Assembly (NCBI GenBank): GCA_018067045.1
Contig: JAGPVL010000035.1
Coordinates: 62,001-126,000, forward strand
Source of the DNA: Gammaproteobacteria bacterium
GTDB lineage: Bacteria > Pseudomonadota > Gammaproteobacteria > Pseudomonadales > Alcanivoracaceae
Length of the DNA: 64,000 nucleotides
Direction: 5' to 3'
This document shows positions 16,564 to 40,691 of the stretch, piece by piece. The notes below the pieces were generated by a model that was given only the letters and a program-made list of their open reading frames with translations, was not told where the DNA came from and made no database searches. The position numbers and the translations under genes are program-made. Within the stretch, counting starts at the first letter, position 1. Each line of letters begins with the position of its first letter.

Positions 16564-16686
16564 CAGGAGCCGCTTTCAAGCGATAAGGTTTTTGCTTTTG
16601 GTCGAGCGCCATTCGCTTGCAAGCAAGCTCCTACAAAAACATCGAACCACACTGACCTTGTGGGAGCTTGCTTGCAGGCGATAGGT
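16564..16686. repeat. REP-like elements in a convergent junction
   Basis: Opposed copies of the REP family lie at 16612-16636 (TTCGCTTGCAAGCAAGCTCC orientation) and 16658-16682 (TGTGGGAGCTTGCTTGCAGG orientation). A diverged copy lies at 16564-16585. They sit between the carotenoid oxygenase gene (ends 16563) and the DUF3301 gene (ends 16755), which converge. Confidence 0.8.
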
Positions 16687-20592: not shown

Positions 20593-21177
20593 ATGTCCGA
20601 ATACGTTCTCATACTGATCAGCGCCGTGCTGGTTAATAACTTTGTACTGGTCCAGTTCCTTGGCCTATGCCCCTTTATGGGCGTCTCGAATAAAGTTGAG
20701 ACCGCCATGGGCATGTCCTTGGCGACGACCTTCGTACTGACACTCTCGTCAGTACTGTCTTATCTCACTTGGGCATATCTATTGGTCCCCTTTGGGCTGG
20801 AATATCTGCGCACCATTTCCTTTATTTTGGTGATTGCGGTTTCCGTTCAGTTCACGGAAATGTTCGTGAAAAAATCAAGCCCACTGCTCTATCGCGTACT
20901 CGGCGTTTTCTTGCCACTGATTACCTCGAACTGCGCCGTGCTCGGCGTTGCGCTATTGAACGTACGCAAAGAAGAAACAACGTTTCTATCCTCCCTCACT
21001 TACGGTTTCGGTGCCGCGCTTGGCTTCTCACTGGTGCTGGTTTTGTTTGCCGCCATGCGTGAACGCATTGCCGTCGCCGATGTACCCGAAGCATTTCGCG
21101 GGCCAAGCATTGGCCTCATTACGGCCGGACTGATGTCGCTGGCATTTATGGGCTTTTCAGGCCTGATTAAACTATGA
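20593..21177 (+). CDS. rsxA: electron transport complex subunit RsxA
   Basis: This integral inner-membrane subunit of the Rsx/Rnf ion-pumping electron-transfer complex has 194 residues and six TM helices. The conserved opening has [20 protein letters not shown], and the [11 protein letters not shown] and [13 protein letters not shown] motifs carry the two Cys residues (in GLCPF and TSNCAV) that ligate the inner-membrane iron-sulfur centre shared with RsxE. It is homologous to RsxE. It begins the rsxABCDGE operon and overlaps rsxB by 4 bp (ATGA). Confidence 0.97.
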
Positions 21178-21773
21178 CGACCATACTCATTGCCGTTGCC
21201 GCCCTGTTGCTGCTCGCCGCTGTATTTGGCGCCCTGCTCGGCTTTGCGTCGGAGAAATTTAAAGTCGAAGGCGATCCCATCGTCGAACAGATCGACGCCT
21301 TGCTGCCACAAACTCAATGCGGCCAATGCGGCCATCCTGGCTGCTTACCCTACGCCGAAGCCATCGCTAACGGCGAAGATCACAACAAGTGCCCGCCGGG
21401 CGGCGAACAGACCGTCATCGATTTGTCCGAACTCTTAGGCCGTGAAGTATTAACACTAGATGCGGATGAAGACGCTGATGTCGGCATCAAAAAGGTGGCC
21501 TATATTCGCGAAGACGAATGCATCGGTTGCACCAAATGCATTCAGGCTTGCCCAGTAGACGCCATTCTCGGCGCGGCGAAATTAATGCATACCGTGATCA
21601 CCGACGAGTGCACCGGTTGCGATTTGTGTGTTGAACCCTGCCCTGTCGATTGCATCGATATGCTTGAAGTCAAACCCACTCTCGGCACGTGGACGTGGCA
21701 CAAACCGGAAGGCATCGGTTTACGCTCCGACACATCTGTTCCAGTAAATGTTATTCCGGTGGTGAACCTATGA
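21174..21773 (+). CDS. rsxB: electron transport complex subunit RsxB (ferredoxin-like)
   Basis: This iron-sulfur subunit of Rsx/Rnf has 199 residues. One N-terminal membrane anchor (about 3-22) is followed by a 4Fe-4S domain with CGQCGHPGC (about 44-52) and two ferredoxin-type clusters [12 protein letters not shown] and [12 protein letters not shown] near residues 112 and 142. The enzyme moves electrons between RsxC and the membrane subunits. The start overlaps rsxA and the stop overlaps rsxC (ATGA), so the operon is translationally coupled. Confidence 0.97.
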
Positions 21774-24496
21774 ATTCGCCACTGACAATTAAATCGCCTC
21801 TCGCGAAATCAGCCAAATCGGCCAAAAACAGCCGCCCTATCTTTGATTTTCATGGCGGCATTCATCCGCCAGAAAACAAAGTGCAATCCAACAGCACTCC
21901 GATACAAACGCTAGCGTTACCGCCGCTACTGATTCTGCCGCTTAATATGCATATTGGCGCGCCGGCAAAACCGATCGTGAATATCGGTGATCGAGTGTTA
22001 AAAGGCCAGAAGCTTGCAGATGCTAATGGCGTGGTCAGCGTGCCGGTGCATGCACCGACGTCTGGTACTATTACCGCAATCGGTCCGCGTGCGGTACAGC
22101 ATCCGTCCGGTTTGGATGCACCCTGTATTGTTTTACAGCCCGACGGCGAAGACCGTTGGACCGAACGACACCCTATTCATAATTGGCGCGAATGCTCACC
22201 CTCAACACTGATTACCCGCATTCGTGAAGCAGGCGTTGCGGGAATGGGTGGCGCCGGATTCCCTAGCGCCGTCAAAGTTAATTTAAAGCAAGGTACGCAA
22301 ATTCAGCAGCTGGTGCTTAACGCGGTCGAATGCGAACCCTATATCACCGCCGATGATTTATTGATGCGTGAACGCGCCGACGACATTGTCCGCGGCATTC
22401 ATATTTTGCAGCACCTGATTAAGCCGCACGAAACCTTAATTGGCATTGAAGATAACAAACCTTTGGCGATTGCCGCTATGCGCGCCGCCATTGAGAACGC
22501 CGAAAAGAACAACGGCGGCTCAATCGAGGTGGTGGTTGTACCCACCAAGTATCCATCCGGTGGCGAAAAACAATTAATCCAATTACTGACCGGCAAAGAA
22601 GTACCTAGCAGCGGCATTCCGGCGCAAGTCGGCGTGGTCTGTCAGAACATCGGCACCGCGCTCGCTATGTATCGCGCCATTGCCTTTGGCGAGCCACTGA
22701 TTTCTCGTATCACCACTATTACCGGTGACGCCGTTAAACAACCGGGCAATGTCGAAGTATTGATCGGCACGCCGGTCAGCCATCTGCTTAACCATGCGGG
22801 CGTCAGCGATGACAAACTCGGCCGCCTGATTATGGGTGGCCCAATGATGGGCTTCACCTTGCACGCGCTGGATATTCCTGTTGTGAAAACCAGCAACTGT
22901 GTTATCGCCGCAAGCAAAGAAGAATTACCCGAACCTGCCACCGAGCAACCGTGTATTCGCTGTGGCAGCTGCGCCGAAGTTTGCCCTGCTGATTTACTGC
23001 CGCAGCAACTTTATTGGTACAGCAAAACATCAGATCTTGAACGAGCACAACAATACAATTTGATGGACTGCATCGAGTGCGGCGCCTGCGCATACGTTTG
23101 CCCCAGTAATATTCCGTTGGTGCAGTATTATCGTTTTGCCAAAGGCGAAGTCCGTCATCAAGTGGCGGAACAAAACAAAGCCGATAAAGCACGCGAACGT
23201 TTTGAGGCACGCCAAGCCCGCATCGATAAAGAACTTGCTGAGAAAGAAGCACGCCGCCAAGCCCGTCTTGAAGCGAGTCGGCAAAAAGCCCTTGGCCAAG
23301 TGGACGCAAAAGCAGACGCTAGCAACAACATCGACATAAAGGCCATTAAGGCCGCCTCGCTTGCAGCATCTTCTGCCTATAAAGCTGCAGTCAAAGCGCT
23401 TAAAACCGCACAAGCAGAAGAAGCCGATGCCAGCGAAGTCGCCGCGCTGTCCGCACAAGTGGACCAGCTCAAAGCCGCAGCCGATCAAGCCAAGGCGGCG
23501 GTACGCGACGCAGCCTCTGCGCCGACCAGTTCGTCAGGCGGGGCTTCAGACACGGCCGCAGCAACGCAATCCGACATCCACATGAAGGCGCTAAAATCTG
23601 CCGCGCTGGAAGCATCATCCGCGTATAAGACCGCCGTCAAAGCAATGAAAACCGCCGAAGAAAACGGCGACGGGAATGTTGCCGAACTGCGTGCACATGC
23701 TGACACCTTAAAATCCACCGCAGACGCTGCGAAAGCTGCCGTGCGTGACGCCAACACTGGCACCGCTATGCCAGCACCTACTTCGACGATCGATCCAGTC
23801 GAGACGTTGAAGAAAGCAGTATTGGATGCCTCGTCAGCCTACAAGGCCGCAGTCAAATCGGTGAAAGAAGCAGAGCTGAGCGACGCCGACAATCTTGCCG
23901 AACTGCGCAGCGAAGCAGACGTCTTGAAACGTAAAGCAGACCAGCTAAAAGTCGATCTGCGTGACGCCAAAGCGGCAGCGCCTAACGTCGTGAAAGAAAG
24001 CACAACAACGGAAGCCGCAACGGCTACACAAGAGCACGCTCCAAACACGGCAGATCCTATTGCAGAGCGTGCCGCGAAAATGAAAGCACTAAAAACCGCC
24101 TACAACAGCGCCAACAAAATTTGGAAAGAAGCCAACGCCGCTCTCGAGCGCGGCATTCGTGAAGGCGCAGAAAACATCGACGAACGTCGCGCCAAAGTTG
24201 ATTTACTCAAAGCCCGCGCAGAAGGCACACGAGCCGAATTAAATGAACTGGTCGATCAGGCCAAGGCCGGTATTCGTGCCAGCGGCAGCGATCTAAAATC
24301 GTTAAAGCTCGAAGCCGCCCGCGCCGAAAGCGCGCTGGGCAGTAAAATAAAAGAATTGGAAGAGGCCAAGAAGAGCGCCGACGAAGAGCGTATCAACGTG
24401 CTCTATCAAGAGCGCGACATGCTCAAACGCGAAGCCGAGTTAGCCGCCAACGCGTTAAAGTCTGCGGTTGATGAACAGGGGTTAAGCGACGTATGA
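21770..24496 (+). CDS. rsxC: electron transport complex subunit RsxC with a long Ala-rich repeat tail
   Basis: The protein has 908 residues. The start is the ATG overlapping the rsxB stop. It has an N-terminal RnfC barrel with the NADH/FMN Rossmann-type domain, including [12 protein letters not shown] (about 154-165) and [10 protein letters not shown], followed by two 4Fe-4S motifs [12 protein letters not shown] (from Cys395) and [12 protein letters not shown] (from Cys434). After about residue 480 it continues with a charged helix and then about four imperfect repeats of roughly 60 residues (centred at 23330-23510, 23575-23755, 23795-23970, 24060-24270), each with an [11 protein letters not shown]-like segment and ending in AAVRDA or similar. 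RsxC homologues such as the E. coli protein also carry Ala-rich repeats, but this tail looks distinct. Coiled-coil is likely. Confidence 0.95.
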
Positions 24497-24554
24497 GCTT
24501 TTACCCCGCAGACAAAACCACTTTTGCGACAACGCGCATCACGGAATTTTTTCT

Positions 24555-25580
24555 ATGGCTTTAATCACCGTTTCGTCGCCGCACACCACTCGCAAGGGCA
24601 ATCACACTGGCGCCTTTATGCGCCAAGTACTTTACGCAACGCTGCCGGGCATAGCCGTGCTCACGTGGCTGTTCGGCTATGGCACGCTCATCAACCTGAG
24701 CTTTGCCGTCATCGTTGCGCTGCTCACCGAAGCGCTAGTACTGAAAATACGTGGCCGGGATATTCGCTTCTACCTGAGTGATTACAGCGCCGTTATTACG
24801 GCGGTATTACTCGCCATCGCCATACCGCCGACCTCCCCTTGGTGGCTAACACTGGTTGGCGTGACCTTCGCTATCGTCATCGCCAAACAGCTTTACGGCG
24901 GCTTGGGTATGAATCCGTTTAACCCCGCCATGGTCGGTTATGTGCTACTACTGATTTCATTTCCCGCGGAAATGACTCGCTGGGTTGCCCCCAATGAAGC
25001 GCACTCTTTCAGCACATCATTGCAATTATTTTTCGGCCATATTGGCGATGTCGATGCGCTGACCGGCGCCACACCATTAGACACATGGCGTACGTGGGCG
25101 GGCAACGCGGAACAACTGGCAAGCCACCCAATTTTGCACGGCAATGTTGCCGGCATGGGCTGGGAATGGGTCAACCTCGCCTTCTTGCTCGGCGGTCTGT
25201 ATTTAATCGCTCGCGGCATTATTACCTGGCACATTCCGGCCGGTGTTTTAGCGGGCGTACTCGCAATGGCGCTGCCATTTTGGCTTATCGATGATATCCG
25301 TTACGGCGACCCGCTCTTTCACCTGTTCAGCGGCGCGACCATGCTCGGCGCATTCTTTATCGCCACCGACCCAGTAAGCGCCGCAACAAGCCGCAACGGT
25401 CGTCTTATTTTTGGATTCCTGATTGGCGTGCTCGTATGGGTTATCCGCACCTTCGGCGGCTACCCCGACGCCATGGCCTTCGCTGTGTTGTTACTCAATT
25501 TGTCGGCGCCGACCATCGATTACTACACTCAGCCGCGCACCTACGGCCACAAAGCGGCGAAGCGAGGTGCACGCAAATGA
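24555..25580 (+). CDS. rsxD: electron transport complex subunit RsxD
   Basis: This membrane subunit has 341 residues and about nine hydrophobic segments. It carries the FMN attachment motif DALTGATP with Thr173 as the expected flavin-linked residue, located in a periplasmic loop, and the conserved GLGMNPFNPAMVGY segment (about 117-130). Flavinylation at this residue is known for RnfD and depends on ApbE. The ATG at 24555 is 58 bp after rsxC. The stop overlaps the rsxG start by 4 bp. Confidence 0.96.
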   Translation: MALITVSSPHTTRKGNHTGAFMRQVLYATLPGIAVLTWLFGYGTLINLSFAVIVALLTEALVLKIRGRDIRFYLSDYSAVITAVLLAIAIPPTSPWWLTLVGVTFAIVIAKQLYGGLGMNPFNPAMVGYVLLLISFPAEMTRWVAPNEAHSFSTSLQLFFGHIGDVDALTGATPLDTWRTWAGNAEQLASHPILHGNVAGMGWEWVNLAFLLGGLYLIARGIITWHIPAGVLAGVLAMALPFWLIDDIRYGDPLFHLFSGATMLGAFFIATDPVSAATSRNGRLIFGFLIGVLVWVIRTFGGYPDAMAFAVLLLNLSAPTIDYYTQPRTYGHKAAKRGARK

Positions 25581-26227
25581 TGTTGCAATCGATCTCCAAG
25601 AACGCCGTCATTCTCGGCCTCTTCGCCATTGCCACGGCGGCCACGCTAGCACTGACGAATGAAGGCACGCTGCAACGTATTCAGTGCAACAAACAGCATG
25701 CCTTGGAATCATCACTACTCGAAGTCATGCCGAAAGCGCTATTTGATAACGCCTTATTACAAGACGTGATTGTCGTCGAAGACCCTAGCCTCGCGCGCAA
25801 GCCGCAACACCTGTATCGCGCCAGACTCAACGACAAGCCTGCCGGCGTCGTCATTGAAGCGAGCGCACCCGACGGTTATGGTGGCGCGATTAGTTTGCTG
25901 GTTGGCATTGATGCAAGCGGAGACATTACCGGCGTAAGGGTCGTGCCACCGCACAACGAAACACCCGGCCTAGGTGACAAGGTAGAACTGAAAAAATCCC
26001 CTTGGGTCCTCAGCTTTAATGGCAAGTCACTCGACAACACGCCAAAGGAAAGCTGGGCAGTGAAAAAAGATGGCGGCGCTTTCGATAGCTTCACCGGTGC
26101 AACGATTACCCCCCGCGCCGTTGTTGCCCAAGTACAGCGCGCATTAAGCTACTATCAAGCGAACGCAGACACGCTGTATGCCATGCCAACACAAACAGCA
26201 ACCGACACGGAGAGCTGTGATGGCTGA
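25577..26227 (+). CDS. rsxG: electron transport complex subunit RsxG
   Basis: This 216-residue periplasmic subunit is anchored by one N-terminal TM helix (about 9-27) and carries the FMN_bind domain. The covalent-FMN motif is [14 protein letters not shown] with Thr176 as attachment site, and the NETPGLGDK segment (about 127-135) is conserved. The ATG at 25577 was chosen because it overlaps the rsxD stop (ATGA) and begins right before the membrane anchor; the longer in-frame extension upstream reads through rsxD. The stop overlaps the rsxE start region. Confidence 0.95.
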
Positions 26228-26927
26228 TCTCAAGAAAATTGTTGTCGACGGACTCTGGAGCAACAACCCAGCCACCGTTCAGATTCTCGGACTGTGTCCG
26301 TTGCTCGCCGTGTCTGGCACCGTGGTTAACGCACTTGGGTTAGGCCTCGCCACCATGGCCGTACTGGCCGGGTCAAACGCCTGCGTCTCGATTATTCGCC
26401 ACTACGTGACCGATGCGATTCGTCTGCCTGCCTTTGTCATGATTATTGCCGCACTGGTTACCGTCATCGAAATGTTGATGCAGGCTTACACTTTTGAGCT
26501 ATATGAAATACTCGGCATTTTTATTCCGCTGATCGTCACCAACTGCGTCGTCCTCGGTCGCGCCGACGCCTTTGCTTCCAAGAACCCCGTTCTGCCCGCC
26601 TTTATCGACGGCGCCATGATGGGCCTCGGCTTTTTGGTGATTCTCTTATTGCTCGGCGCACTGCGCGAAGTGATCGGCCAAGGCACCCTGTTTACCAATA
26701 TGCAGCTGCTGTTCGGCCCAAGCGCATCAGGCTGGCAGATCAACCTCTTCGAAAACTACCGCGGCTTCCTGTTTGCGGTACTGCCGCCCGGCGCCTTTGT
26801 CGGTCTCGGTTTAATTATTGCCGGCAAAAACGTGATTGATAAACGCCTAAAACAAGCACAAAAGCGCAAACAAGACGCCGAACCGAAAACCAGCCGTCGA
26901 GTTCGTACCACTGGACAGGTTGCTTAG
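26220..26927 (+). CDS. rsxE: electron transport complex subunit RsxE
   Basis: This membrane subunit has 235 residues and six TM helices, is a paralogue of RsxA, and has [25 protein letters not shown]-type and [15 protein letters not shown] motifs (LCP and TNC cysteines) for the shared iron-sulfur centre. The start at 26220 is the ATG that gives the expected [15 protein letters not shown] opening; it overlaps rsxG by 8 bp. It closes the operon. In many relatives nth follows directly, but here nth is about 2.7 kb away. Confidence 0.96.
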
Positions 26928-31212: not shown

Positions 31213-31337
31213 CATTGCTTGCAGGGCAAGCTCCCTAGGCAATCAAGAACCGAGAAACGGTTTTTGTGGGAGCCTGCTTGCAGGCGAATGTTTTCGCCGT
31301 CTGCAAGACGGTTCGCTTGCAAGCAGGCTCCCACAGA
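31213..31337. repeat. REP-like inverted pair, probable two-way terminator
   Basis: A REP at 31265-31287 (TGTGGGAGCCTGCTTGCAGG) and an opposite REP at 31312-31336 form a near-perfect inverted repeat of about 24 bp. The stem also contains an inner CCGTC-TGCAA-GACGG hairpin. A third, degraded copy lies at 31216-31235. The pair fills the junction between two convergent genes ending at 31208 and 31349 and is flanked by short T and A runs, so it could act as a terminator in both directions. Confidence 0.8.
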
Positions 31338-36665: not shown

Positions 36666-37048
36666 CGCCAATCGCCTGCAAGCAGCCTCCCACAAAAGAG
36701 CAAAGACGAAACACACCGCATGCAACCCGCCGACCTTGTGGGAGGCTGCTTGCAGGCGATTAAGCCTCAGCTCGAAATCTTCGCTTGCAAGCAAGCTCCC
36801 ACAAAAGAACAAAGACGAAACACACCGCATGCAACCCGCCAACCTTGTGGGAGGCTGCTTGCAGGCGATTAAGCCTCAGCTCGAAACCTTCGCTTGCAAG
36901 CAAGCTCCCACAAAAGAACAAAGACGAAACACACCGCATGCAACCGCAGACCTTGTGGGAGGCTGCTTGCAGGCGATTAAGCCTCAGCTCGAAACCTTCG
37001 CTTGCAAGTAAGCTCCCACAAAAGATTTAAACCCAAAAAATAAACCAC
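36666..37048. repeat. REP/BIME-like tandem array with a 109-bp unit
   Basis: At least seven REP copies lie at 36671-36696, 36736-36760, 36781-36807, 36845-36869, 36889-36916, 36953-36977 and 36998-37023, with alternating orientation. The opposed pairs plus flanking sequence repeat with a period of 109 then 108 bp, differing at only a few bases. The unit also contains the non-REP stretch AAGACGAAACACACCGCATG. The array lies between rnt and the peroxiredoxin gene, which converge. No protein gene is supported in it. Confidence 0.9.
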
Positions 37049-37941: not shown

Positions 37942-38688
37942 CTAAGGGCGTGTGCGGGACCAAATAATAACGCCGGTAATGGCAAGTACTATTAACAATA
38001 AGGCTGCCGCATCCATCAATAACTTACCCGCCAAAGAAACCACTCGGCCGGAATGAATATCCTGTATCAAGCGCTGCCAATTTAACTCAGGCGGCACCAC
38101 CTGCATCGGCAAGGCGGCAACAACTTCCGCCGGCGGCATCTGCCAAGCCAACGGCTGAACCTCCTCATCAAAAGGCGTCGCGTTGAGCTGATCGATATCG
38201 TAAAGCCAGCTGGATGCAGCCGAAAATAGTACTAGGCTGCTGCCTTCGCTGTCGCCAGCACCGATGCCAGACAAAGACATCAAACGTTCAAACTGTGGTA
38301 ACTCAAACTCACTGCCCAGACGTTCAATCACGGTGCCGTTGTTATCGAGCAACAATAACGCGCCATCACAACCGGCGACGTAGATATCTGCCACGCTCAC
38401 CACACCAGCATAAGGCCGACGGCACTGGCTGACAGGCTGCTCCTGTAAAAAAAGCTGATCGCCAACAAACGACCACCATTGCTGATCAATTTCCACAGAG
38501 ACCACGGGCTCCGCAACGGGCACACCATAGATGCTGGCCAAAAAATTAGGCAGTGTGCGCTGATTCAAACCAAGGCTTTCAATATGGTTAAGGAGAATGC
38601 CTGTGAGTGACAAGATGATCACCGGAGCGGCAATCAGCAAGCCAAGCCAACGATGTAGGCGGCGCCATTTACGACTGGGAATTGCCAT
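37942..38688 (-). CDS. PepSY-associated transmembrane protein
   Basis: The protein has 248 residues with two TM helices, at about 15-33 and 222-243. The first follows LHRWLGLL with His12 and ends with His35 in ILLNHIES; a further His lies in IQDIHSGRVV just before the second helix. The layout of two helices with paired His residues matches PepSY-TM proteins that hold a haem pair and move electrons across the membrane. A periplasmic middle domain of about 170 residues lies between the helices. It is the third gene of a porin/FMN-binding/PepSY unit. Confidence 0.8.
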   Translation of the reverse strand: MAIPSRKWRRLHRWLGLLIAAPVIILSLTGILLNHIESLGLNQRTLPNFLASIYGVPVAEPVVSVEIDQQWWSFVGDQLFLQEQPVSQCRRPYAGVVSVADIYVAGCDGALLLLDNNGTVIERLGSEFELPQFERLMSLSGIGAGDSEGSSLVLFSAASSWLYDIDQLNATPFDEEVQPLAWQMPPAEVVAALPMQVVPPELNWQRLIQDIHSGRVVSLAGKLLMDAAALLLIVLAITGVIIWSRTRP

Positions 38689-38742
38689 AGCGATCCATAC
38701 CTACCTTGCGGAAAAATAAAAATGAACCGCGATTGTAGCGGA

Positions 38743-39324
38743 TCAGCTCGCTATTGCACGCTGATGTAACCACAGAGCGAGCCGAGCGGCACGCTGAAGA
38801 GCACGCACAGAAAGCGTCGCCCCGGTAATGCCGTCAATACGACGGTCTAATTTTTTGCCTTTTAGCTGAACGCCATTGAACTGCTTGGTAAAGAAATCAT
38901 GACGCACTTCCCAACCGCGAGATTCACGATAGACCAGTACGTTCACGGCTTTAATACCGGTGTCATTCACAACCACACCTACGGTAATCGGATGATCACG
39001 TCCAATCACATCCAGCACCCAAACGGTGGTATCACCCTCGCGCCAATAGCGGCGACGAAAGCCAGGATCTTCTCCAGCAATGGATTTTGCTTGATCACGT
39101 GCATCTTGATCGAGCCATAACATAGAAGGTGAAGGTGCTTGCTCGAATGCGCCGCCTATCAGCTGCTCAACCGATAGATAAACGCTATCCTCGCCCTCTG
39201 CCTTAACGATGGCTGTCGCATCCGGTGCCGACATCGGGCTGTTAGGGGCATCACTCAGCGCCGCCGAGTCAGAATAAACCGGTGAAATACTCATGACAAA
39301 GCCGGACAAAATACACCTCAACAC
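38743..39324 (-). CDS. periplasmic FMN-binding (flavinylated) protein
   Basis: The protein has about 193 residues. A C-terminal FMN_bind domain (about 90-190) has the attachment motif DGITGATLSV with the expected flavin-carrying Thr at about 170 in this numbering. The start is uncertain. GTG at 39324 gives a signal-peptide-like N-terminus (basic Arg, hydrophobic core, cleavage near VYS-DSA) and is the one listed; a TTG at 39387 would overlap the porin stop, and an ATG at 39294 would leave no signal peptide. The listed start lies in the 3' arm of a 15-bp hairpin. ApbE would be needed to attach FMN. Confidence 0.75.
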   Translation of the reverse strand: MLRCILSGFVMSISPVYSDSAALSDAPNSPMSAPDATAIVKAEGEDSVYLSVEQLIGGAFEQAPSPSMLWLDQDARDQAKSIAGEDPGFRRRYWREGDTTVWVLDVIGRDHPITVGVVVNDTGIKAVNVLVYRESRGWEVRHDFFTKQFNGVQLKGKKLDRRIDGITGATLSVRALQRAARLALWLHQRAIAS

Positions 39325-39354
39325 AACCCGCCAGCATTGTTGTGTTGAGGTGTA
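39312..39354 (-). promoter_or_regulatory. 15-bp perfect hairpin after the porin stop, over the next gene's start
   Basis: TACACCTCAACACAA at 39312-39326 and TTGTGTTGAGGTGTA at 39340-39354 are exact complements around a 13-base loop. On the transcript (minus) strand the hairpin begins about 20 bases past the porin stop and is followed by AUUUUG, a weak U-tract. It may attenuate read-through and the candidate GTG start (39324) of the FMN-binding gene lies in its 3' arm. Confidence 0.8.
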
Positions 39355-39374
39355 AATCACGTCACTGAGCAACC

Positions 39375-40514
39375 TTAGAAGCTCCAACCAAGACCTAGGT
39401 TGAATGAATCATCGGCATCATCATTCTTGCCCACGTTGTCATAAGAAACATCGTTGTAATCCGCTTTCAGGACAACGCGCGGAACGACCCAGTAGTTAAT
39501 ACCAACAGTGTCATCCTGACGCTCTGTATTTTCTAAATCGTTACCACCGTCGTTGTAATCAAGGTCAGTGTGGCGAACAAACACACCAATTTTATCGGTG
39601 AATTTATACGACGCTTCCGCCATCAGACCGCCTTGTTCTTCAGCAGCTTTATTGCCGATAGCTTTATCAAATTCCCACTGCGCGTGCTGCACAGTAAAGG
39701 TCGCACCTACGATAGAATAACGCGCGTGCGCTTCAACCAAAACGCCCGGTACTGCATCAAAACCAACAGCACTTTGATAAACATCTTGCTGATACTGCGC
39801 GCTGACAGCCAGATCCAAACCAGGCAAACCGGCGTAGCGAACGCTGCCCGTTACGGCGCCTTTATTAGCATTGGCTTCGGCCGATTTTTGACGACCACTG
39901 CGAATCTTATTCGGCACTCCGCCCACCTTGAACATATTCAAGCCAGAGTGGCCGGCGATGTCATAGGTAAAAGCGCCTATATTCTGTGAGAACATTGCAC
40001 CTGTTTCCCACCACGTTGCTGGAATGATCTTATTTTCCAACACATTACGCTCTACGCCGTAGAAGGTGTCCGGCTCATGGGTTTCGTTAAGGATGCCAAC
40101 CGGCACCATAAACAAACCGACTTTGGCTTTAGTATTCTCCGACGTGTCAATTTCAATATATGCCTGCTCAAGCTCTACCTCGCCAGGCTTGCCGTCACCG
40201 GCAAGACTGCTCTCCAGCTCAAACTCAGAGAAGAAGCGCACTTTTTCGTTATAGTCGTAGGCGAAATACAGCACGAAACGATGAGCGTCGACTTGGTCAT
40301 TCTTAACATTTTCTAAATAGTTGTTGTAATGCAGTTCACCGTAACCACCGATATGCAGCTTATCCAACGCAGAACCAGACGATTTCTGCGCCTTCAGCCC
40401 TTCAATTTCCTGTGCCAGAATATCCAGCTGCTGCTGCATTTCTTCTAGGGTTTGCGCCTGAGATAAAACAGGCGTGGCCGCGATGGCCGCTACGAGTAAA
40501 GTGCGCTTAAACAT
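39375..40514 (-). CDS. outer-membrane porin of the OprO/OprP-like type
   Basis: The precursor has 379 residues. Signal peptide MFKRTLLVAAIAATPVLS (cleavage near AQA), then a short coiled-coil with heptads in LEEMQQQLDILAQEIEGLKAQ-type spacing, then about 16 beta strands and a C-terminal Phe (LGLGWSF). Residue pattern is that of phosphate-selective-like OprO/P porins with a trimerising N-terminal coil. The ATG at 40514 follows GGGGAA by a few bases. It heads an operon with an FMN-binding and a PepSY protein, and a Fur-like site lies 60-75 bp upstream. Confidence 0.82.
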   Translation of the reverse strand: MFKRTLLVAAIAATPVLSQAQTLEEMQQQLDILAQEIEGLKAQKSSGSALDKLHIGGYGELHYNNYLENVKNDQVDAHRFVLYFAYDYNEKVRFFSEFELESSLAGDGKPGEVELEQAYIEIDTSENTKAKVGLFMVPVGILNETHEPDTFYGVERNVLENKIIPATWWETGAMFSQNIGAFTYDIAGHSGLNMFKVGGVPNKIRSGRQKSAEANANKGAVTGSVRYAGLPGLDLAVSAQYQQDVYQSAVGFDAVPGVLVEAHARYSIVGATFTVQHAQWEFDKAIGNKAAEEQGGLMAEASYKFTDKIGVFVRHTDLDYNDGGNDLENTERQDDTVGINYWVVPRVVLKADYNDVSYDNVGKNDDADDSFNLGLGWSF

Positions 40515-40575
40515 GACATTCCCCAATCAACTAACGATTCAATTGATGGCATTCTAAGGCAGACGTTAATCTTAT

Positions 40576-40590
40576 TGCAAATCTTTCTCA
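40576..40590. promoter_or_regulatory. Fur-box-like 7-1-7 element upstream of the porin gene
   Basis: TGCAAATCTTTCTCA matches the Fur 7-1-7 core TGATAATnATTATCA at 10 of 14 informative positions, and the flanking CATTA continues the hexamer pattern. It lies 62-76 bp upstream of the porin ATG. This suggests iron-dependent control of the porin/FMN/PepSY unit, not proven. Confidence 0.45.
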
Positions 40591-40635
40591 TTAGTCTTAA
40601 CAGACCGATAAGCAACTACACGGTCTTCAAAGCAT

Positions 40636-40664
40636 AAAAAAACCCGGCGCCAAGGCCGGGTTTT
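40636..40664 (-). terminator. intrinsic terminator of grxD
   Basis: AAAACCCGGC at 40639-40648 and GCCGGGTTTT at 40655-40664 form a perfect 10-bp stem with a six-base loop, followed on the minus strand by a run of U (A's at 40636-40642). It lies 28 bp past the grxD stop. Confidence 0.93.
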
Positions 40665-40691
40665 CAAGCAAGCAGTCCGTTTGATCGACGC

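Follow-up and report, generated by a model that had tools for sequence, protein, structure and literature searches.

Gene clusters that pair a PepSY-like membrane protein with flavinylated partners were defined by Meheust et al. (2021; PMC8238504), and the passages of that paper used here tie them to iron reduction, report that they are Fur-repressed in Shewanella and Caulobacter, and treat VciB as an iron reductase. Passages of two other papers (PMC13001220, PMC13038864) describe iron use and Fur control for hiuABC. FezC, a DUF4405 haem protein, is modelled as a homodimer in the part of its description consulted (PMC10979944). Here we describe a three-gene operon encoding a porin, an FMN_bind (flavin mononucleotide-binding domain) protein and a PepSY_TM protein, found in an Alcanivoracaceae genome (GCA_018067045.1). 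It lies in a 64,000-nucleotide stretch of contig JAGPVL010000035.1, which we call the window. The operon and its operator are compact, spanning 37942-40592 on the minus strand, and the three reading frames lie head to tail, just as a preliminary description made from the sequence had them. We read the unit, with a probability of roughly two in three, as a ferric reductase of the periplasm, based on flavin and haem, repressed by Fur and equipped with its own porin, and as a variant of the PepSY-type flavinylated systems.

Comparison with described systems

The likeness to the systems of Meheust et al. (PMC8238504) is that a PepSY_TM protein is encoded together with an extracytosolic partner of the flavinylated type. 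The frequent companions given in the passages used are DUF2271, DUF4198 and ApbE, whereas here they are an FMN_bind protein and a dedicated porin, usually with no adjoining ApbE; the main text of that paper, supplements aside, does not mention porins. By the operational definition of those authors the window unit belongs with their systems, PF03929 and PF16357 being over cut-off and an FMN_bind gene adjacent. The same passages give the PepSY-like protein three transmembrane helices and our model has two, and for this reason the unit is filed as a variant.

The reductases FoxB, HiuB and VciB provide a second comparison. The last helix of the window protein, with its conserved histidine, aligns with FoxB, whereas the rest of the protein is built differently, from two helices in all and a predicted half-propeller domain; the two PepSY domains and four transmembrane helices per chain of the FoxB type are absent from the model. 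The passages on hiuABC (PMC13001220, PMC13038864) name no flavoprotein or porin. With the DUF4405/FezC group, described in part in PMC10979944 as membrane haem proteins, the link is that a b561/DUF4405-type protein or a relative of it takes the place of PepSY at four loci; the window PepSY protein itself matches DUF4405 below cut-off (17.7 bits against 26.7), the only direct sequence link seen. The Shewanella oneidensis genes SO_1188-1190, considered as a possible orthologous operon, were rejected as such, only the PepSY part being alike: SO_1188 is described as an inner membrane protein of the PepSY-TM type, with a Fur motif, whereas SO_1190 is given as a periplasmic component of a Co2+-type transporter. 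No description of a porin/FMN_bind/PepSY unit was found in the titles, abstracts and passages covered, although the cluster table of Meheust et al. may hold it unnamed. A unit with this porin, operator and half-propeller subunit is thus not found described, and it is a variant of the PepSY-type flavinylated systems rather than a new category.

Co-occurrence of the three genes

Two samples were used. The first consists of the best 80 of 429 loci by similarity to the FMN_bind protein profile; the second, 184 genomes drawn evenly from the class, that of the window among them, was added because the 80 loci had been picked by similarity. In the class sample the FMN_bind protein was called at E <= 1e-15, and a gene was counted as adjacent within 500 bp of the FMN_bind gene.

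The protein is present in 49 of the 184 genomes, with the porin adjacent in 44, PepSY in 45 and both in 41, so that the adjacent trio occurs in 41/184. Among the 80 loci, 72 have the trio, six have porin and FMN_bind, and two have FMN_bind and PepSY (both at contig ends). The other neighbours of the 72 trio loci differ widely, and the titles of the records found in the trio search include Alcanivorax, Shewanella, Methylophaga, Cycloclasticus, Thiohalobacter, Sideroxydans, Gallionellaceae and Pelagicoccus. The co-occurrence on which the preliminary description had staked its interpretation therefore holds, the trio being kept far beyond the Pseudomonadales. Individual genomes of the class sample depart from it in various ways: in G061, G166 and G191 other genes intervene and the porin is some 2.5-3.3 kb upstream; the FMN_bind gene of G096 is at the start of a contig; G170 has only a weak FMN_bind match and no adjacency; and the porin match is split in two pieces in G044 and G090 and is a short piece in G143. 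A separate search for relatives gave a PepSY match in 14 of 38 genomes, that of the window included, several of them with porin and FMN_bind gene beside it.

The Fur-type operator

A Fur-like site upstream of the porin had been proposed from the sequence. Scored against the bare Fur consensus, the 15-mer in question is unremarkable, matching 10 of 14 positions as do 22 places in the window (itself included), with one place reaching 11. The consensus score was therefore replaced by a matrix trained on orthologous porin promoters from outside the Alcanivoracaceae (63 of 67 used). With this matrix the site AATGAGAAAGATTTGCAAT scores 21.1 bits, first of 127,964 positions in the window, the next best being 10.8; it is thus the single best site of the window.

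A best consensus match of at least 11/14 is found in 41/74 porin upstream regions against 52/618 others (Mann-Whitney p ~1e-21, the sequences being related and not independent), and an unseeded count of 7-mers in the same two sets gave TTGCATT (37/74 against 39/618), AATGATT (32/74 against 47/618) and TGAGAAT (20/74 against 26/618). At least 8 bits with the matrix are reached by 61 of the 67 training regions and 54 of the 618 controls. The score of the window site is reached by 23 controls, of which 14 are divergent genes sharing the porin's promoter region; the remainder include feoA (Pfam FeoA), a bacterioferritin and an FbpA-like gene. The promoter of a Bfd-like gene scores 19.8 bits, and that of a TonB-dependent receptor in the window's own genome 20.4 bits, level with the operon site. 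The predicted Fur-box-like operator overlaps a consensus-match promoter, as would be expected of a member of the Fur regulon; promoter-like matches in the window are not above chance (2 found, 3.5 expected).

The flavoprotein

The second protein of the operon matches Pfam PF04205 FMN_bind with 36.8 bits (cut-off 22), and the flavinylation motif DGITGATLS picked out in the preliminary description is present. The pattern D-x-[IVL]-[ST]-G-A-T-[LMI]-[ST] is found in 77 of the 81 FMN_bind matches from orthologous loci, the other four having A-G-A-T. Hydropathy gives no membrane anchor, and the start, judged by eye, is signal-peptide-like; the protein is probably secreted, as far as its sequence tells. 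In NCBIfam it is matched best by RnfG models, with scores far below cut-off. A PDB sequence search with its profile gave nothing convincing (best E 0.18), and plasmid records gave no match.

RnfG and NqrC, which are built into membrane complexes as subunits, share with the window protein the FMN_bind domain with its D-x-x-[TS]-G-A-T motif, whereas the window protein is a separate protein. The window also holds an Rnf-type operon with an FMN_bind subunit of its own (20593-26927, gene names assigned by eye), and a third FMN_bind gene of the genome, presumably NqrC, is on contig C27 close to one of the two ApbE genes that the genome contains. The second ApbE, at locus L113 (6447-11581 of G000:C42), stands beside a protein without a Pfam match and an 839-amino-acid lipoprotein-like protein with a laminin-G domain and two CXXCH motifs in frame. 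At the Alcanivorax-type loci L108-L111 an FMN_bind relative directly follows a protein in which LolB is combined with an oxygenase domain of the MPAB/Lcp type (Pfam, L108 only).

The PepSY_TM protein

The third protein matches PF03929 PepSY_TM with 49.6 bits (cut-off 28.8) and PF16357 with 34.8 bits, also over cut-off. Its model (mean predicted local distance difference test, pLDDT, 91.1) has a helix at residues 5-33, a β domain, and a helix at 217-245, which bears out the two-helix protein of the preliminary description. The hydropathy peaks are these two helices and a lone 19-residue window (1.82) from residue 95, which is formed of strands in the model. Foldseek gave no match at E <= 0.001. 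In VIA-align the β domain aligns with propellers within residues 56-193 (Z ~9-10, ~105-120 residues); these alignments barely test the helices, and that FoxB is not among the 50 listed says nothing. From the model, with blades counted by eye, the periplasmic domain is predicted to be a three-blade half β-propeller. The alignment of the last helix with FoxB is to residues 333-374 of 7abw (E 6.8e-5).

Three histidines are conserved in the 72 aligned sequences (numbered without the start methionine): H11 and H211 in all 72, and H34 in 63. In the model H34 and H211 are on one side of the membrane and H11 is near the opposite end of helix 1, so that a partner for H11 would have to come from a second PepSY chain. 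Taken together, the two helices, three blades and three histidines point to a probable homodimer, which would have four helices, a six-bladed cap and two sites for haem b.

The porin

The porin matches Pfam PF07396 Porin_O_P with 22.5 bits (cut-off 20.9). Its model (pLDDT 85.5) shows 16 strands together with a helix near the N-terminus (residues 23-41), with fold matches to OmpU, OmpC and OprP; a PDB sequence search gave no match. While it shares the 16-strand fold with porins of the OmpC/OmpU/OprP type, it differs from them in its Fur-type promoter, in its tie to a redox pair, and in being a subfamily of its own by its sequence, in which Glu, Asp, His and Arg positions are conserved. There are 34 invariant columns across 71 sequences, and the charged residues conserved at 94% or more are nine Glu, five Arg, four His, three Asp and one Lys. 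The loop NETHEPxTFYGVER between strands five and six is nearly invariant, its HEP being among the invariant columns. One might guess at an acidic, metal-friendly pore. The abstract of PMC7315122 connects OmpC of E. coli with the uptake of ferrous iron.

Neighbouring genes, exchanges and insertions

In the window the operon is flanked by grxD upstream and a peroxiredoxin gene downstream (reading frames and Pfam). The preliminary description places bfd-bfrB in this position in Pseudomonas. At orthologous loci elsewhere, Pfam analysis of 107 proteins (106 immediate neighbours and one inserted gene) gave, among the leading families, ApbE 7, ferritin 7, Fe-S_biosyn 7, FeoB_N 4 (FeoB_C 3), solute-binding proteins (SBP) 4 and FUR 3; as the yardstick for how surprising such neighbours are, a genome was taken to hold one or a few copies of each. 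We read the solute-binding proteins as ferric from the FbpBC-like genes that follow them. ApbE stands beside the operon at 7 of the 80 loci. With the operator, these neighbours uphold the iron setting proposed for the trio.

Four of the six loci with porin and FMN_bind but no PepSY have a b561/DUF4405-type protein or a relative of it in the PepSY place. At L041 (labelled Sideroxydans) it is a protein of 154 amino acids following the FMN_bind gene (PF01292 37.2 bits, PF14358 28.5 bits), and relatives with 44-58% identity follow that gene in L042, L057 and L090. A further locus, L053, ends within the FMN_bind gene. The class sample has four genomes in which PepSY is not adjacent, and in three of them a relative of the L041 protein is encoded near the FMN_bind gene (E ~1e-5 to 1e-12): in L118 after an ApbE gene that directly follows the FMN_bind gene, in L119 on the other strand, and in L121 within ~1 kb. 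Such an exchange supports electron transfer, not iron as such. Genes are also inserted: in L114 and L115 the porin and FMN_bind genes are separated by one for a lipoprotein-like protein that carries two CXXCH motifs, and L116 has an imelysin and a DHOR di-haem protein.

Proposed function and alternatives

In the mechanism that we propose, iron starvation would lift Fur repression of the operon, and the porin would admit small iron species, its presumed cargo, across the outer membrane. The PepSY_TM protein, as a homodimer with two putative haem b sites, would pass electrons over the inner membrane to an FMN held covalently on the FMN_bind protein, from a donor that we infer to be either quinol or a reductant of the cytosol. 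Fe(III) complexes would then be reduced to Fe(II) in the periplasm, by the flavoprotein or by the haem protein itself, and the Fe(II) would be imported. A fuller version, in which the three parts form a widespread envelope iron-reduction machine with an iron-specialised porin, must be put more tentatively, at somewhat less than an even chance: here the PepSY dimer, as a new kind of haem-protein architecture, would provide a four-helix di-haem core and a six-bladed cap for docking the flavoprotein, with the membrane part exchanged for a b561/DUF4405 protein elsewhere and c-type haem proteins or imelysin added at some loci.

Several observations weigh against the reductase reading. The mechanism is weakest at the step of Fe(II) import: in the window's own genome (96% complete) FeoB-family matches are frames of 349-479 amino acids or one of 926, which by length we read as not FeoB-like, and ZIP and Nramp gave no match while controls worked; a search with one FbpA-like protein was also empty, a result that says nothing by itself. 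The two ApbE genes of the genome both lie away from the operon. A gene of the Fur, FeoB, Bfr, FbpA or FbpC clusters is within three genes at only 18 of the 80 loci, a count with no random-locus control, and the operators of most Alcanivorax-type loci (L023, L025-L028) are weak, at 6.5-15.6 bits. L089 and L117 have neither PepSY nor a b561/DUF4405-type cytochrome, and the relatives search left 24 of its 38 genomes without a PepSY match. Within the Alcanivoracaceae, L007-L009 have PepSY alone between grxD and peroxiredoxin, with the FMN_bind relative elsewhere in the genome, and L012, L013 and L015 have FMN_bind and PepSY without adjacent porin; in L108 the FMN_bind relative is beside the LolB/MPAB-oxygenase protein. 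Porin, FMN_bind and PepSY proteins can therefore exist without each other.

The peroxiredoxin and glutaredoxin genes beside the operon in the window, and the DHOR protein, a putative peroxidase, at one locus, raise the question of whether a Fur-controlled envelope redox relay might have another job when iron is scarce, such as peroxide or disulfide defence or the feeding of a di-haem peroxidase-like enzyme. We consider this unlikely: the grxD/peroxiredoxin slot is found in a minority of loci (GrxD within two genes in 10/80), the leading neighbour families elsewhere are ApbE and iron genes, and the DHOR protein is accompanied by imelysin.

The part of the preliminary description that is not supported is reduction at the cell surface; co-occurrence, operator, flavin/haem electron path and iron setting were retained. 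For surface or extracellular reduction the porin would have to pass electrons or a soluble flavin shuttle outward. The CXXCH lipoprotein-like gene of L114 and L115 would suit this, as would the Sideroxydans, Gallionellaceae and Shewanella labels of some bearers of the trio or of porin plus FMN_bind. A 16-strand pore is too narrow for a flavoprotein. Because the porin has this general-porin fold, and the FMN_bind protein has no anchor by hydropathy and a signal-peptide-like start, reduction in the periplasm is likelier; moreover no c-type cytochrome was recognised by eye, from the first residues, in the 30 commonest neighbour clusters. Surface reduction thus also seems improbable to us.

It is much less likely still that an ordinary porin, for phosphate or of a general type, shares its promoter here with an unrelated electron-transfer pair. 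The Porin_O_P match, the presence of OprP among the fold matches and the redox pair without adjacent porin at the three Alcanivoracaceae loci noted above would fit, and a phosphate porin was considered as the principal reading and set aside because of the constant redox partners and the operator. The adjacency in 44/49 genomes, the separate subfamily and its invariant HEP also speak against it. HEP is kept by a paralogue elsewhere in genome G151, and in more distant porins (L137, L139) the profile match ends before the loop. Finally, copper might be reduced instead of iron, as proposed for the Bordetella PepSY_TM protein CrpH in the passages of PMC13038864 that allow PepSY_TM proteins such a role, and this we think barely credible given the Fur-type operator and the lack of any copper family in the 25 of 88 neighbour families shown.

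Features of the window

The features of the operon are collected in Table 1. The inverted repeat over the start of the FMN_bind gene could possibly act as an attenuator or stabiliser of the mRNA. Folding of orthologous porin-FMN_bind junctions gave perfect stems of at least 10 in a minority of those measured, for which reason no function is assigned to it. Terminator-like hairpins in the window are modestly above chance (7 found, 3.5 expected).

Palindromes resembling repetitive extragenic palindromic (REP) elements, TGTGGGAGCTTGCTTGCAAGCGA and variants, are found at 36672-37020 and also at 175-197, 16613-16681 and 31265-31335; there are 12 matches in the window against none in 100 shuffles. 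They are partly in tandem, with a spacing of 108-109 bp, between the peroxiredoxin gene and an RNase-T-like gene.

Table 1. Genes and predicted sites of the porin/FMN_bind/PepSY_TM operon (window coordinates)
Feature	Position	Strand	Basis and remarks
Porin gene	39375-40514	minus	379 amino acids; reading frame call and Pfam
FMN_bind gene	38743-39360	minus	GTG start likely, uncertain; TTG 39387 or GTG 39324 possible
PepSY_TM gene	37942-38688	minus	Reading frame call and Pfam
Fur-box-like operator AATGAGAAAGATTTGCAAT	40574-40592	minus	Ortholog-trained matrix
Sigma-70-like promoter TTGCAA-18-TAGAAT	40551-40580 (40580-40551)	minus	Consensus match; overlaps operator
Terminator-like hairpin between grxD and operon	40638-40665	minus	11-pair stem, loop of 6, T-rich tail
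Flavin-attachment motif DGITGATLS	38809-38835	minus	Sequence; kept in orthologues
Perfect 15-bp inverted repeat	39313-39353	minus	3' of porin stop, over FMN_bind gene start

Significance

TonB receptors are the usual explanation for how iron crosses the outer membrane, and less is known about the bacterial use of weak ferric complexes. If the proposed function is correct, a porin subfamily tied to a flavin/haem reductase would constitute a TonB-independent route for iron. Since loci labelled Alcanivorax and Shewanella are among those found, the unit could be tested in culturable strains.

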